This document shows positions 197 to 5,814 of a stretch of 6,022 nt of DNA, piece by piece; within the stretch, counting starts at the first letter, position 1; the number at the start of each line of letters is the position of its first letter. The notes under the pieces were generated by a model. It was not told the DNA's origin. It did no database searches and saw only the letters and a list, made by a program, of their open reading frames with translations. The position numbers were made by a program, and so were the translations under genes. This DNA comes from Gammaproteobacteria bacterium (lineage in GTDB: Bacteria; Pseudomonadota; Gammaproteobacteria; Acidiferrobacterales; Acidiferrobacteraceae), in NCBI GenBank assembly GCA_028064935.1, contig JAPTWT010000093.1, positions 1-6,022 of the forward strand, given 5' to 3'.

Positions 197-622
197 ATGA
201 AGACGATCGAATGCCGCGTGGAGACCGGCGCCGCGCCGGAAGCGCTCTGGAGGATCTGGTCCGATGTCGCAAACTGGCCCCGGTGGGACCATGGGATCGA
301 ATGGGCCCGGCTGGGAGGCCCCTTCGATGGAGGAACCACCGGCCGCCTCAAACCGAAAGGAGGTCCGGAAGTGCCCTTCGTTCTCCTCTGGGCGAATCCG
401 CAGGAGGGATTTTCGGACGAATCGCGGCTTCCGTTGGGACGGTTGAGATTCGAGCACCGTTGGCGCCCTTTGGAAAACGGGCGGGTCGAATTTGTCCATC
501 GTGTCGGCTTCCATGGCCCGCTGGGATTCTTGTACGAGTTTCTCATGGGACCCTCCTTCAGGAGGGATCTCCCAAAGGCCATGGAAACCCTGGCCCGGAT
601 AGCCGAAAGGGACGGTCAATGA
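197..622 (+). CDS. SRPBCC family (polyketide cyclase/START-like) protein
   Basis: 141 residues. The opening pattern, a beta strand (KTIECRVETGA) followed by an alpha helix carrying ALWRIWSDVANWPRWDHGIE, is the hallmark start of SRPBCC-fold proteins. It is followed by alternating strands (GGTTGRLKPKGG, RFEHRWRPLENGRVEFVHRV) and a long C-terminal helix (about 125-141) that normally lids the hydrophobic cavity. The family binds or modifies small hydrophobic ligands; the ligand cannot be read from sequence. No signal peptide or membrane segment is visible, so it is probably cytoplasmic. The start is set by the AAGGAGG site. Its TGA overlaps the next gene's ATG (ATGA), so the two are translationally coupled. 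With a MarR regulator in the operon, a role in sensing or handling a small molecule is plausible but inferred. Confidence 0.85.
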   Translation: MKTIECRVETGAAPEALWRIWSDVANWPRWDHGIEWARLGGPFDGGTTGRLKPKGGPEVPFVLLWANPQEGFSDESRLPLGRLRFEHRWRPLENGRVEFVHRVGFHGPLGFLYEFLMGPSFRRDLPKAMETLARIAERDGQ

Positions 623-1071
623 AGACTCCGGAAGCCTCCCGGCGCTTCTGGATCGGGGTGGCGAGCCGGGACCATGCGCTGAAGGGAGTGGCCGGCGGCT
701 TTGCGCAACTCTGCCACGGCAAGGCCGCCCCGCTTCGCCGGATGGCCGCGGGAGACGGGCTTGTTTATTACACTCCCCGGGAGCGGTTCGGGGAGAGCGA
801 GCCCTGCCAGCGCTTCGTGGCCATAGGCCGGATCTCGGGAAGCGAGGTCTATCCGTTCGACATGGGCCGGGGATTCGTTCCCTTCAGGAGGGACGCCGCT
901 TACGGTCGGACCTCCTCCGAGGCCCCGATCCGCCCTCTTCTTCCTCTCCTGACATTCATTCGGAACCCCGCTCGCTGGGGAGGGGCCTTTCGCTTCGGAT
1001 TTCTCGAAATCACCTCCGGGGATTTTTCGGTCATCGCCCATGCGATGGGGGTTCCCGATGGGCCCGTTTGA
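619..1071 (+). CDS. EVE domain-containing protein (UPF0310-like)
   Basis: 150 residues, essentially one complete EVE domain. Diagnostic stretches in order are FWIGVASRDHALKGVAGGFAQ (about 10-30) leading into LCHGKAAPLRRM (31-42), GDGLVYYTPRE (45-55), the strand RFVAIGRI (65-72), GFVPFRRDAAY (85-95), EAPIRPLL (101-108) and RWGGAFRFGFLEI (119-131). EVE domains have a PUA-like fold with an aromatic pocket and are linked to recognising modified bases in DNA or RNA; they occur alone or fused to restriction and other defence domains. This copy is stand-alone with no catalytic motif, so it probably acts as a binding module. The ATG at 619 overlaps the upstream stop in ATGA. An open frame runs back to 211, but that part is a shadow of the upstream gene. 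The gene ends inside the start region of the marR gene. Confidence 0.9.
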   Translation: MKTPEASRRFWIGVASRDHALKGVAGGFAQLCHGKAAPLRRMAAGDGLVYYTPRERFGESEPCQRFVAIGRISGSEVYPFDMGRGFVPFRRDAAYGRTSSEAPIRPLLPLLTFIRNPARWGGAFRFGFLEITSGDFSVIAHAMGVPDGPV

Positions 1072-1513
1072 CTGGAGGAAAAGCCGGTTCGAAAAGGCCG
1101 AGGAAAGTCCGGGACTCTTGCTCTGGCAGGTCGGTTCCCAATGGCGCCGATCAATAGAGAAAACCCTCGAACCGTTCGACCTGACGCACCCCCAGTTCGT
1201 CGCTCTGGCCTCAGTCGCCTGGGTGGGACGGAGCGGACTGCCAACCAGCCAGGCCGATGTGGCCCGCCATATGAAACTGGACGTCAATACCGTCTCCCAG
1301 ATTCTGAGGTCCCTCGAAGAAAAGGGCCTGATCGAACGAAAACGCACTCCGGACGAGCGCGTCCGGAGCCCGGTGCTGACTGAATCGGGCGTCGACCGGC
1401 TCGGACGGTCCCTTCCGGCTGTCGAAACCGCGGACCGGCTTTTCTTCGACCCCCTGGAGCGGAGCCTTCCGGATCTTGTCCGTTCCCTCCGCATGCTCCT
1501 TCGGGAGCACTAA
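1058..1513 (+). CDS. MarR family winged-helix transcriptional regulator
   Basis: 151 residues from the ATG at 1058. The helix-turn-helix is QADVARHMKLDVNTVSQILR (65-84), continuing SLEEKGLIERK (85-95). The wing has the family signature D-x-R-x-x-x-x-x-L-T-x-x-G (DERVRSPVLTESG, 99-111). N- and C-terminal helices form the dimerisation region, and length is typical. An in-frame ATG at 1040 would add six residues, but only 1058 has a purine-rich GGGGG element (1047-1051) at a sensible distance. Either start overlaps the end of the EVE gene, so the three genes form one operon. MarR proteins are mostly repressors released by small, often aromatic ligands and usually control their own operon; the TACGTA repeats at 159-183 are the likely target (inference). 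Confidence 0.9.
   Translation: MGPFDWRKSRFEKAEESPGLLLWQVGSQWRRSIEKTLEPFDLTHPQFVALASVAWVGRSGLPTSQADVARHMKLDVNTVSQILRSLEEKGLIERKRTPDERVRSPVLTESGVDRLGRSLPAVETADRLFFDPLERSLPDLVRSLRMLLREH
1494..1509 (+). terminator. UUCG tetraloop hairpin at the end of marR
   Basis: TGCTCC (1494-1499) and GGAGCA (1504-1509) form a perfect 6-bp stem closed by a C-TTCG-G loop, an exceptionally stable RNA tetraloop. It spans the last codons of the regulator and ends two bases before the stop codon. The downstream bases (GACTCTCCCC) are pyrimidine-rich but have no T-run, so it is either a 3'-end stabiliser or a weak terminator rather than a classical intrinsic terminator. Confidence 0.35.
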
Positions 1514-1948: not shown

Positions 1949-4900
1949 CTATTGAAGTTTGTTTTTCGACTCGTCGCTTGAGGTCAGCAGCTCCTCCACC
2001 TGGTCGAGGAACGCGGCAAGCTGGCCCGGCTTGCCGGCGACCTCCGAGCGCCATTCGACCATCGGCCTGACCATCGCCAACTCGCGGGCGTTCCGCGACA
2101 GGCTCTCCAACTCGCTGTCGGTCATGCCGCGCTGGCGCAGGTAGTACTGACCCCATCGGGTAAAGGTCAGGATCCACATCGAGACCACCAGGGCAATGTC
2201 CCACCGAGTCCAGTCCGAGGTGCTGGCGAGGGGCTGTTGCACGATCCACCTCTGCCGCTTCAGGATCGCCTGCAGCGACTTCAGGCTGGCCTGCTGTCGC
2301 TGGGGACTACTACGGGCGAAGAGGAACGCAGTGATGTTGGTCGTCTGACCATCGCGCGCCAGGTCAAACTGCCGCGGCTGGTGCTTCAGTTCCGGCTCCA
2401 ACAAAGCTGTCAATTCCTGAACCCAGATCTCGCAGGCATCGTCGGGGCTGATGCGGTCATTCTGCAACAAGGGAAAGATCACATCCTGGAACAGCCACGG
2501 CCCGGTCCAAGCCAGTTTCCGCATATGTCCGCGCATGGAATCGATCAGGCGCCTCAGCTCTTCTGCGGGAATGGGCGTCGGCAGTGCGTCGTGCAGCGCC
2601 GCGACCAGGCCTTGGTAGATATCCGCCTTTTCCGGATTTCCGGCCGCGTGACGAATCATCCAGCCCAGGGCACGTACCCGCTCCGGGTAAGCAAAGGCAG
2701 TCAGCAACTGCAGTACTGTGGCGAGCCCTCCCGGCTTTTCCAGTCGCATCTCAATCGCATTCAGTCCCATCCATTGCAGCAGACCATTGCCTCTGTGAAC
2801 GAGCTGGTCCCGCTGCTCCTCGCTGATGTCGAACTGCACCGACAGCAAAATTTCACTGACGATCTGGCTCAACAAGGACAGTCGCATCACGTCCGAGTTT
2901 TGAGGCTCCATCGGCACGGCAGCCATCTGGGCTTCAGCGATCGTAAGCAGAGGGTCTGGGGCATACTTCCACAGAAGCTTGATAGCGAAATACTCCGGCC
3001 AAGTCAAAGCTAAGTATTTTGTTGGAGAAGACAGCGAATGCAGGTGATAGGGGCTATGCAGTAGGGCTTCAACCGATTCCCTAAAAAGATGCGGGTCCAT
3101 CAAGGCCAATTCTTTGCCAACATAGTCATTCGCGCGGTTGAATGAAGCCTTGAGGAACTGCGTGAGGAATTCCAGAAACCCTTGCGTGGATGCAAGCTTG
3201 CTAAAGTCGCTCTCCTCGGTCCGTGAATGCGCGAGAAGCTCGCCAAGCACCTCCCATGTTGCCGCGAAGCCTGCGAAGTTGCCATCCTGTTGCTCCAGGC
3301 AACTGCGAAGGCCTTCCGTTTCTGGCAGAGCGAGTGAGTCATTCTTAAGCAGGTCTCGCACCGCCATCTGCTCCTTCAACGGCTCGCCGCTCAAGCCGTG
3401 TAGCGACGGCTCGCCAGCCCATACGCTCAGCACGTCCCCTGCTTGGGCCTTATCGAGGAACCGTAGTGGCTCGTAGCGTCGCGGGGCTGATGGTACTGCT
3501 GTGGAGTCGAAGAGAAGCCGCATGGAGGGATTCTCGGTCTCACTTTCGGACTGAGTTGCCTGTGTCTCCTTGAGCAGACCGGACTTGTATTGCTCTACAT
3601 CGAGCAGGGTATCCGCAGGGATCGGGGTGACCAGCAAGGGGTAGTTTTCGGCGGCTACCTGCAACGAGTTTGACAGGTTGAAACCTGCGACCGGCAGCCC
3701 GTCCAGTCCCATAATCAGGATGTAACGATCATGCAGTCGCCCTTTCTTCAGGGCGTAGAGGCGCAATTTGATGCCTTTTGTCAGTAGGTGACTGTGTTGC
3801 TCGCAGTTAGTCACCAAGTTATTAATCCGGTCCGGGGTGGGATTGTCGGCTTCGCCCGGCGTGGCTTCGCCTTCCTTCGATGGTTTGGGTAGGGACGTGA
3901 AGACGATGTAGTCGGCCTTCTGTGCTGCACAAAGCAACACCAGACCCAAGCCGGCTTCATCAAAATACGGATCAAAAATGACTATCTGGTGCTCCTGGTA
4001 TTTGGCCAACAACCACTTGAACCATTCCACGAATTGCAGCCGCCCCTCGCCGTCGCTCTTTCCCCATCGCAGAAAGAAGCGCCCCTCCGATTTCGGAGGC
4101 TGGAGCCGCGCAAAAAGGGATTTGAGATCGCGATTAGCTGGGACCCAAGGGTCCGCCTCACGTCCGCCAACGCGGTTAGTAAATCCCAGATTGTTGCGAT
4201 TGATCGTCAGAACGGCCTTCACCCGCGCCGACATGGATGGGCGCCGAGTGGTTTTTTCCAGCCAATCAAACTTGACCGGGATGGCACCGTGGCCCGAAAT
4301 ATGACACTGAGTATTTACCTCCCGAACGTACCCGATGCGCCAGCGGCAACATAGCGTGCCCGTGCGGCAATGGTCACCGTGGAAGCCAAAGATCTCCAGT
4401 TCAGTGCTGTCGGTCCTAGCGCGAAGCTGGTCGTTTAGGTCGAACTTGCACTCGAACACGCCGTCCGCATCGCGTTCTGCAGTGGCAACGCCCGAATAAG
4501 CGATTTGGCCGTCGTTCGCAATGCTCAGGCGGAACTGGAAGCCGCTGAAGTGCGGTAGCTGCATCGGATTGAATCGGGCGACCAGAGCGCGCGGGGCGTC
4601 GGTCCAGCTCACGCTCAGTAAGGGCCGCTCCAGGTCATCCAGCGCAGGAAAGACCAGCAGCTCGAGGTCGCCAAACCGAGCTGAGTCAGCGCCACCGAAG
4701 TCAAAGCCTGTATCCGCGTTGAGGTGCTTGAGCACCGCTTGGGTCAAGACGACGTCGTAGTCCTGACCCAAGCGGAAGAGAGCCCCTTTGTCCATCTGAG
4801 TAATCGAAGCACTAAAGGCCCCAGCTCCACCATGCGGACTGGAGGGCGAACCCGGGTCAAACGCGTCGCGGTTAAGCAAGTAGGCGACGGGGCGGTAGAC

Positions 4901-5320
4901 CAGATCATCGGCGGGGAGCGCAGTTGCTCCGAACCTTGCCTTCAACTGGTCCGAGAGCCCGAGCTTCAGTTCTTCGCTGATTTCCGAGACGGTTCGGCCG
5001 ACGCTCAATTGCCGTAAGAGGTCCGCGCAGTGGACACTTGTGACGTACAGGTTGAGCCGGATAACCTGTGCCTGGACTTGCCCGAAGGTATAGAAGTTAT
5101 CGTCCTTGGTGGAAGACCAGCGGTCGCTGGAATGGCGGTAGGGGAGCAGGCGGCCGTAGACTACGCGATTTTCAATCGATTGCTCGGACTTGATCTGCAT
5201 GATCCACAGCTGTAGAGCGCAGTGGCGGGCGTCCTTAGAGAACAGCCGTGCCAGCCGGCCGTCGTTGAGCAGGTCATCTAGTACAGGAGCCATCGATTCC
5301 TTATGAGCAACCTTCCACAT
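1949..5320 (-). CDS. large PLD-like-domain protein, VPA1262-family-like, candidate defence protein
   Basis: 1123 residues from the ATG at 5318-5320, preceded by AAAGGA with an 8-base spacer. Another ATG nine codons in (5291-5293) also has AAGGA close by; the frame stays open upstream to a TTG at 5407 without a ribosome site. In order: an N-terminal alpha/beta region (about 10-390) of no recognised fold; a phospholipase D-like region (about 410-590) with FDPYFDEAG (449-457), a core strand YIVFTSLPK, then LHDRYILI (529-536) and GFNLSNSLQ (546-554); and a mainly helical C-terminal half (about 620-1123) with a conserved-looking HRGNGLLQWMGLNAIE (842-857). The HxK motif of PLD enzymes appears as H530-x-R532, and the usual Asp six residues after the Lys position is absent, so catalysis is uncertain. 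There is no Walker A motif, signal peptide or clear membrane segment. The overall plan recalls VPA1262-type proteins; this is from memory and unverified. The gene stands alone, convergent to the marR operon and next to insertion-sequence debris, which fits a single-gene defence or island function (inference). Confidence 0.75.
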   Translation of the reverse strand: MWKVAHKESMAPVLDDLLNDGRLARLFSKDARHCALQLWIMQIKSEQSIENRVVYGRLLPYRHSSDRWSSTKDDNFYTFGQVQAQVIRLNLYVTSVHCADLLRQLSVGRTVSEISEELKLGLSDQLKARFGATALPADDLVYRPVAYLLNRDAFDPGSPSSPHGGAGAFSASITQMDKGALFRLGQDYDVVLTQAVLKHLNADTGFDFGGADSARFGDLELLVFPALDDLERPLLSVSWTDAPRALVARFNPMQLPHFSGFQFRLSIANDGQIAYSGVATAERDADGVFECKFDLNDQLRARTDSTELEIFGFHGDHCRTGTLCCRWRIGYVREVNTQCHISGHGAIPVKFDWLEKTTRRPSMSARVKAVLTINRNNLGFTNRVGGREADPWVPANRDLKSLFARLQPPKSEGRFFLRWGKSDGEGRLQFVEWFKWLLAKYQEHQIVIFDPYFDEAGLGLVLLCAAQKADYIVFTSLPKPSKEGEATPGEADNPTPDRINNLVTNCEQHSHLLTKGIKLRLYALKKGRLHDRYILIMGLDGLPVAGFNLSNSLQVAAENYPLLVTPIPADTLLDVEQYKSGLLKETQATQSESETENPSMRLLFDSTAVPSAPRRYEPLRFLDKAQAGDVLSVWAGEPSLHGLSGEPLKEQMAVRDLLKNDSLALPETEGLRSCLEQQDGNFAGFAATWEVLGELLAHSRTEESDFSKLASTQGFLEFLTQFLKASFNRANDYVGKELALMDPHLFRESVEALLHSPYHLHSLSSPTKYLALTWPEYFAIKLLWKYAPDPLLTIAEAQMAAVPMEPQNSDVMRLSLLSQIVSEILLSVQFDISEEQRDQLVHRGNGLLQWMGLNAIEMRLEKPGGLATVLQLLTAFAYPERVRALGWMIRHAAGNPEKADIYQGLVAALHDALPTPIPAEELRRLIDSMRGHMRKLAWTGPWLFQDVIFPLLQNDRISPDDACEIWVQELTALLEPELKHQPRQFDLARDGQTTNITAFLFARSSPQRQQASLKSLQAILKRQRWIVQQPLASTSDWTRWDIALVVSMWILTFTRWGQYYLRQRGMTDSELESLSRNARELAMVRPMVEWRSEVAGKPGQLAAFLDQVEELLTSSDESKNKLQ

Positions 5321-5326
5321 TCTCAC

Positions 5327-5336
5327 TATCCTTTTG
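5327..5336 (-). promoter_or_regulatory. ribosome binding site that decides the start of the large gene
   Basis: Read on the - strand, AAAAGGA sits eight bases before the ATG at 5318-5320. The earlier in-frame starts (TTG at 5407, ATG at 5395) have no purine-rich element ahead, so the shorter N-terminus is preferred. The internal ATG at 5293, with AAGGA only four bases upstream, remains an alternative. Confidence 0.5.
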
Positions 5337-5457: not shown

Positions 5458-5477
5458 ATTCTACCGGATTCAGTCAA
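5458..5477 (-). promoter_or_regulatory. possible promoter elements for the large gene
   Basis: On the - strand TTGACT (5472-5477) matches a -35 box and overlaps the last codons and stop of the transposase relic. TAGAAT (5458-5463) resembles a -10 box, but only eight bases separate them, so they cannot serve together; the correctly spaced hexamer after TTGACT is AAATTC, a poor -10. The true promoter is unresolved, although transcription starting at the edge of the insertion-sequence relic is plausible. Confidence 0.2.
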
Positions 5478-5814
5478 GACCGCCTGACTTCGCGATTTCA
5501 AGCAAGGTTGGAATGTGCGGTCCATACTCGACAGCCTGAGCGCCGCCAGTTTTTTCCGCAATCCGAACGCCGCTACCGACCTTCCGTGTAGGCATTCGTG
5601 ATTCTGCTGGGCGAGCCCCAGTAGGCAAAGATGTCCTCGTAATAATTGTGAACTGTCTCGGACAAGCTACGGAAGCCATCCAGCCCCGTGTCAGGGGCGT
5701 GTTTTCCCACGCATCAAACGCCCACATGGCAGACTCTTTGTTCAGTTCATCGTAAATACGATAGAAGACTTCCTTGAAAAAGAACTCGTGGAGAAAGCGG
5801 CTGCCTCTCTCCGA
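5470..5814 (-). pseudogene. ISL3 family transposase, C-terminal relic (frameshifted and deleted)
   Basis: Three coding segments can be pieced together. One frame, open from 5814, reads FLHEFFFKEVFYRIYDELN, then an AMWAFDAWENTPL stretch. A second frame (5576-5680) carries SETVHNYYEDIFAYWGSPSR followed by ITNAYTEG. The first frame then resumes with VEYGPHIPTLLEIAKSGGLD and a TGA at 5470-5472. The order of a helical ...FYRIYDE... region, an FAYW...ITNAYTE block (its Glu probably the last DDE residue) and a terminal YGxxIPTLL segment matches the C-terminus of ISL3 transposases. At least two frame changes, and an apparent loss of the roughly 50-80 residues normally between TNAYTEG and the terminus, show it is dead. 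The N-terminal zinc-ribbon and earlier DDE residues are missing, and a TGA closes the frame at 5815-5817. No clear terminal inverted repeat was seen. Confidence 0.75.

Follow-up and report, generated by a model that had tools for sequence, protein, structure and literature searches.

The closest known counterpart of the protein studied here is the NCBIfam family NF040699, which takes its name from VPA1262 of Vibrio parahaemolyticus. The gene in question lies on the minus strand of a 6,022-nucleotide stretch of a gammaproteobacterial genome (contig JAPTWT010000093.1 of assembly GCA_028064935.1; this whole stretch is hereafter the window) and encodes a member of the same family. VPA1262 is likewise an island gene: it belongs to VPaI-6, which is lacking in 17 of 41 strains (PMC1464126) and which is reported to encode also the restriction-endonuclease-like protein VPA1256 and the nuclease colicin VPA1263 (PMC10734457). 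The mentions of "VPA1262" found in the literature are all in V. parahaemolyticus papers, "NF040699" is not mentioned in the literature searched, and no functional study of the family was found there, subscription papers and supplements being outside the search. A word search of the DefensePredictor paper (PMC13092281), confined to its main text, gives neither VPA1262 nor PLD. The family is already catalogued and labelled by annotation pipelines.

More distant comparisons come from the PLD superfamily, whose classical motif, H-x-K-x4-D, places an Asp at +7 from the His. BfiI is a single-PLD-domain nuclease that acts as a dimer, FAM83 proteins are eukaryotic scaffold proteins, and Mokosh is defined by a helicase plus PLD. 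The window gene is best read as encoding a horizontally moving, one-gene PLD-type candidate defence protein, and the probability of this reading is put at roughly 0.6. Related genes are often found among anti-virus genes, which makes it a promising candidate for immunity conferred by a single gene.

A Full-Length Member of the VPA1262 Family

The minus-strand frame is intact: it starts with an ATG at 5320 and stays open for 1123 codons, down to 1949, with an AAGGA 8 nt ahead of the ATG; the plus strand holds 20 stops across the same interval. An earlier account of this DNA, made from the letters alone (the sequence-only reading), had described a 1123-residue protein of VPA1262-like type without naming the strand, and both its size and its type hold. 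The whole protein scores 1224.4 bits against NF040699 (cut-off 325), and model positions 1–1026 of 1026 align to residues 35–1051, which is full-length coverage. Nothing tested breaks its full membership of the family, and a match of this score over all model positions rules out a chance open frame. Its N-terminal region, formerly taken to be unrecognised, is covered at residues 85–584 by NF040700, the model of the VPA1262 N-terminal domain (469.5 bits, cut-off 80). The Pfam scan of the protein gives nothing above the cut-offs, and a helicase domain is not found. Among 7999 scored candidates, a protein search gives 474 homologues at E ≤ 0.001; the best 120 of the 474 have 69–100% identity, the entry at 100% being equal to the window protein.

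Structures were predicted for residues 1–400 and for the whole chain, and a fold comparison was run. The predicted order is two N-terminal domains, then the PLD fold, then a helical half. By predicted fold, residues 410–608 belong to the PLD superfamily, which upholds the PLD-like region previously placed at residues 410–590, and the C-terminal half of about 500 residues is predicted to be all-helical (residues 620–1122), as anticipated. Lipid and polyphosphate enzymes also use the PLD fold. Identity with BfiI is 7%, and with the PLD-like domain of FAM83 it is 9–13%; where BfiI has H-x-K and a DNA-recognition domain, the window protein has H-x-R and the helical half. Nor does it fit the definition of Mokosh, as no Mko model is listed for it at E up to 10 and no Pfam helicase was found.

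The active site was compared in an alignment of 167 proteins (148 homologues, 18 proteins from the loci read, and the window protein; P0002, a duplicate, was omitted, as were L002 and L005, which are partial loci). Residues D450, P451, H530, D531, R532, G546, S550, N551, S552, and Q554 are invariant in 167/167. The residue at +7 from the His is Met in 108/167, the window protein included, and Phe in 24/167, and at +10 there is an Asp (D540 in the window protein) in 133/167. H-x-R in place of H-x-K, with no trailing Asp, had been correctly noted from the sequence. The epithet "degenerate" then given to the PLD core has to be dropped, since the HDR...G...SNSxQ set is invariant in 167/167 and the core is hence a fixed variant and not a decaying motif; the same conservation disposes of a PLD domain inactivated by decay. 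Three further residues, K178, R215, and E220 (167/167), are distant in sequence from the PLD motif and look like a second functional site.

With one HDR motif per chain, a functional site would require a second chain. By analogy with BfiI, two chains would pair and their two single H-x-R motifs would form one phosphodiesterase site. A cue from phage or foreign DNA may be sensed by the helical half together with the N-terminal domains, which would keep the site inactive until such a cue arrives; once active, the site would cut nucleic acid of the invader or of the host cell.

A Solitary Gene, Rare and Patchy

Comparison of 20 loci (the window included, several shortened by contig ends), with mechanically called frames of at least 100 residues, gives 251 neighbour frames within 8 kb. 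The commonest neighbour family occurs in 4 loci, and all remaining families are common to at most 2. The VPA1262 gene is solitary at the loci compared, and the observation of a lone gene extends beyond the window because neighbour families so rarely recur. In agreement with the sequence-only reading, no ATPase or methylase gene is seen in the window. At the other loci no partner recurs, and a consistent housekeeping neighbour is likewise absent from the 20 loci. Among them, only L088, an IMG/VR contig, shows a same-strand overlapping nearest neighbour. There, a 240-residue gene (L088:559-1281) overlaps the called VPA1262 frame and lies between it and a PglZ gene (1.7e-11), which is two genes upstream of the VPA1262 member. 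This 240-residue gene is found in 0 of 12 family-carrying genomes by a search without a positive control, and a BrxA search of L088 gave no match, its controls giving no match either. PglZ was rejected as a partner: among the loci read it is adjacent in L088 only, and it is above the cut-off in 1 of the 12 family-carrying genomes, about 0.96 Mb away there.

The distribution of the family is rare and patchy, a pattern familiar from accessory immune genes. Four genome sets were searched, the centre genome being counted in each and some genomes belonging to more than one set. Members above the cut-off occur in 2/398 genomes of the phylum of a Pseudomonas, 7/348 of its genus, 3/345 of the order of an Idiomarina, and 2/349 of the order of the genome that holds locus L001; at E 0.001 the counts become 4, 15, 8, and 2, the additional ones being mostly short relatives. 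The family is present on 5 of 72,556 plasmids, 4 of these typed conjugative, and in none of 50,697 phage records.

Relatives in Defence Contexts

Relatives of VPA1262 recur in mobile islands, in the vicinity of defence genes. For example, PADLOC identifies DRT4 (L048, 1.2e-208), a CBASS cyclase (L052, 1.2e-169), and a type I methylase (L053, 5.7e-260) near family members, and on a Nostoc plasmid (L009), which also holds type I restriction-modification (RM) genes, a DUF2290 (4.1e-109) and helicase pair lies 107 bp from the member. At E 1e-10, the 113 neighbour frames of 11 loci match 106 PADLOC families, against 34 in 10 control regions of the same genomes (130 of 132 control frames were scanned, two being dropped for size, and one further region was lost with a contig of 1.4 kb). 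About 70 of the 106 families come from DRT4 (28), the cyclase (25), and the methylase (17); matches to PDC-S21, PDC-S35, capP (3.1e-69), two of three to mad2, and a third to RmrA were tallied without gene assignment. When neighbours were scanned singly, 6 of 30 had a PADLOC match (1/10 at E 1e-5, then 3/10 and 2/10 at E 1e-10), and two of these six, which hit RmrA/capP-type models only, may be regulators. The evidence for a one-gene, PLD-based defence function is coherent, though informal.

In Escherichia coli, the family is present in 2 of 5426 genomes within the reach of blastn. At the one locus read (L041, from the soil isolate VCSW5), an integrative island after guaA has the VPA1262 gene (L041:20004-23339) in its cargo slot, and a 1304-residue PD-Lambda-4_A-like protein (1.4e-49) is encoded 839 bp from it on the opposite strand. 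The traJ-trbJ-trbL module of this island matches 294 of the 5426 genomes, with most of the query covered in 201; 11 of 295 module records were read, 10 of them at guaA and 1 (L079) at tRNA-Thr near proA. The guaA islands (L041, L073–L078, L080–L083) have an int-TraJ-TrbJ-TrbL end, which an insertion sequence (IS) trims in L078; before yfgI comes a slot with exchangeable cargo.

Cargo was identified mostly by annotation, with PADLOC run on the genes of L073, L075, L076, and L077, and it is of defence type (Gabija, Lamassu-like, type I RM, or DUF262-type) in 9 of the 10 sister guaA islands read. L076 holds Gabija (GajA 2.5e-269, GajB 2.5e-231) and a DUF262 pair; L081 holds, by annotation, type I RM genes with a fragmentary R subunit and a DUF262 pair; and L073 holds NERD-type, YecA, and DUF262 genes, PADLOC reaching only 1e-5 to 3e-6 for the NERD-type and YecA genes. 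The DUF262 pair is recurrent in the slot, being found in all three. Six islands (L074, L075, L078, L080, L082, L083) have an ABC-three-component system, the ATPase gene of which is split by IS100 in L074; the system of L075, the one scanned of the six, matches LmuA (4.8e-23) and LmuB (2.3e-82). Judging by protein accessions in common, four of these six islands are one lineage and two another, which leaves six distinct types of cargo apart from VPA1262, five of them of defence type. The cargo of L077 is a PIN gene and a gene for a 1365-residue protein (L077:18509-22606) without a PADLOC match, annotated solely as a HigA-type antitoxin. The tRNA-Thr island, which has a related trb module, carries heat-resistance genes; hence, the module is not tied to defence.

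Shorter Relatives and a Wider Superfamily

Shorter proteins, of about 530–615 residues, have the VPA1262 core without the helical half. In two- and three-gene operons (L054–L058, L060, L061, L084–L087), the first gene encodes such a VPA1262-N/PLD protein (A). Most operons also encode a B protein of 168–254 residues with a second HDR PLD signature, for which L058 and L087 have no separate gene, and there is a C protein of about 595–660 residues, without a Pfam match where scanned (L055, L058). In L051, a 701-residue protein without a Pfam match (L051:7379-9484) is encoded directly 3′ of a short VPA1262-N protein (L051a), on the other side of which lies a PD-Lambda-1 gene (1.3e-165). The helical half of the window protein has no profile match with the operon C protein or with the 701-residue partner (Prob ≤0.3), and neither can be equated with it.

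The NF040700 operon proteins have a collinear core and the HDR motif in common with the window protein, from which they differ by their length, the missing helical half, separate partners, and, mostly, an Asp at +7. Of the nine short A proteins that were read, seven have HDRF followed by this Asp, mostly together with a GSSLNS block. On alignment with the whole-family profile, Prob is 99.1 for L051a (380 columns) and 92.6 for the operon A proteins (359 columns). Restricted to the PLD part, the values are 98.6 and 95.4, respectively; restricted to the N-terminal part, they are 40 and 1.5. The alignment is due mostly to the PLD part, so that, taken alone, the evidence for N-terminal kinship to the operon A proteins is weak. 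Annotation already records the relation: of 7 such plasmid genes, 6 bear the NCBI label "VPA1262 family N-terminal domain-containing protein," and several further genes are named likewise. PADLOC, run on L055, L058, and the first L056 protein, gives PLD-region models only, such as PDC-S05. In L055 the PLD part is matched by the Mokosh MkoC (1.3e-06) and PDC-S05 (1e-16) models, whereas neither is listed for the window protein at E up to 10. Within 10 kb of the plasmid short operons, annotation places TrlF ATPases (L084, L085), an abortive-infection gene (L086), and a multiubiquitin/ThiF set (L087).

One may tentatively regard VPA1262 as the single-chain form of an immune-nuclease superfamily characterized by a common N-terminal domain and a His-Asp-Arg PLD site, in which Arg replaces the catalytic Lys, a proposal that we hold at somewhat less than even odds. 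As part of it, sensing and cutting would be fused here and split there, since the same core occurs in two-gene (530 + 701 residues) and three-gene operons.

Features of the Window

The three plus-strand genes look intact, and the end of each overlaps the start of the next, which gives them the aspect of a compact operon-like set. On the other side, the transposase remnant has 70–75% DNA identity with ISL3 transposases among the ten matches listed and is interrupted by stops.

Table. Positions of the VPA1262-family gene, its parts, and its neighbours in the window
Feature	Positions	Strand	Evidence
VPA1262-family protein gene	1949..5320	minus	open frame of 1123 residues; NF040699 and NF040700 matches
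AAGGA, likely ribosome-binding site of this gene	5329..5333	minus	sequence upstream of the ATG
N-terminal alpha/beta domain, residues 31–150	4871..5230	minus	predicted structure, pLDDT (predicted local distance difference test) 87–97 in ten-residue blocks
Invariant K178, R215, E220 in the N-terminal half, residues 178–220	4661..4789	minus	167/167
PLD-superfamily domain, residues 410–608	3497..4093	minus	predicted structure and fold comparison
H530-D531-R532, H-x-R variant of the PLD motif	3725..3733	minus	invariant in 167/167
S550-N551-S552-x-Q554, second half of the PLD motif block	3659..3673	minus	invariant in 167/167
All-helical half, residues 620–1122, weakly ARM/HEAT-like	1955..3463	minus	predicted structure
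SRPBCC-type gene (PF10604), ordinary neighbour	197..622	plus	family search
EVE-domain gene (PF01878), ordinary neighbour	619..1071	plus	family search
MarR-type regulator gene (PF01047), ordinary neighbour	1040..1513	plus	family search
Broken ISL3-family transposase remnant beside the VPA1262 gene start	5470..5778	minus	DNA similarity and stops

Weighing the Explanations

Several observations weigh against taking the gene for a one-gene defence system. There is no PADLOC model for the protein: its best match is NsnC (E 0.037, over the PLD region), and no catalogued model matched. The control regions also match PADLOC at the same threshold (DpdE 1.3e-211, ZorD 3.7e-121, mad3 2.8e-48, MzaA 8.6e-46), most of the control families probably coming from one or a few helicases, so that the defence enrichment is an indication and not a statistic. 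In L042, L044, L046, L047, and L050, where few neighbours each were scanned singly, no defence gene was placed. At the window's own locus no defence gene is seen and ordinary genes adjoin; several members lie in defence islands, and this one does not. The neighbours had been called IS relics, which is right for the side of the ISL3 remnant and wrong for that of the SRPBCC, EVE, and MarR genes, so the setting of IS relics is on one side only, and the idea of a cargo flanked by IS on both sides was discarded. By its sequence, moreover, the motif departs from H-x-K-x4-D throughout the alignment, with H-x-R in 167/167 and Asp at +7 in 0/167. The claim of a self-contained anti-phage protein is partly supported by family membership, by the solitary gene, and by relatives near defence genes, and it is weakened by an enrichment without a formal statistic and by the ordinary neighbours in the window. 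Of the two findings that the sequence-only reading had named as contrary to it, a fold outside the PLD superfamily and consistently housekeeping surroundings of homologues, neither came up.

The top two fold matches of the PLD domain are FAM83-type proteins, which are not known as PLD enzymes. The protein could be a defence or regulatory protein in which PLD is a noncatalytic, FAM83-like binding platform and the N-terminal domains or the helical half act. This is unlikely, as H530, R532, N551, and Q554 are invariant in 167/167 and 7 of the 9 short A proteins have both H-x-R and the +7 Asp; retention of the whole active-site set would usually mean catalysis. An accessory enzyme of mobile elements with a role other than against phage (plasmid–plasmid competition, DNA repair, lipid or nucleotide metabolism) would agree with the presence of the family on five plasmids, four of them typed conjugative, and in an integrative island, with the use of the PLD fold by lipid and polyphosphate enzymes, and with the heat-resistance genes of L079. 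Yet one finds no conserved metabolic partner at the 20 loci, and the cargo of the guaA slot is mostly of defence type, which makes such a role improbable. The ISL3 remnant on one side and the ordinary genes on the other would also suit a passenger gene, retained by chance in this genome without defence selection. The intact 1123-codon frame and the retention of the invariant residues speak against it, as do the differences from the L001 relative (about 70% identity), which are 0.213, 0.150, and 0.356 at codon positions 1, 2, and 3 (not a formal ratio of nonsynonymous to synonymous changes); third positions vary most, a pattern as in a protein under selection, and a mere passenger is very improbable.

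Implications

If the window gene does encode a one-gene PLD-type defence protein, a single gene of about 3.4 kb would be a portable immune function, and a family labelled by pipelines would lend itself directly to experiment. Its invariant H-x-R would then demonstrate that Arg can stand in for the usual Lys on the PLD scaffold, and in the split relatives one could naturally study which part does the sensing and which the cutting.

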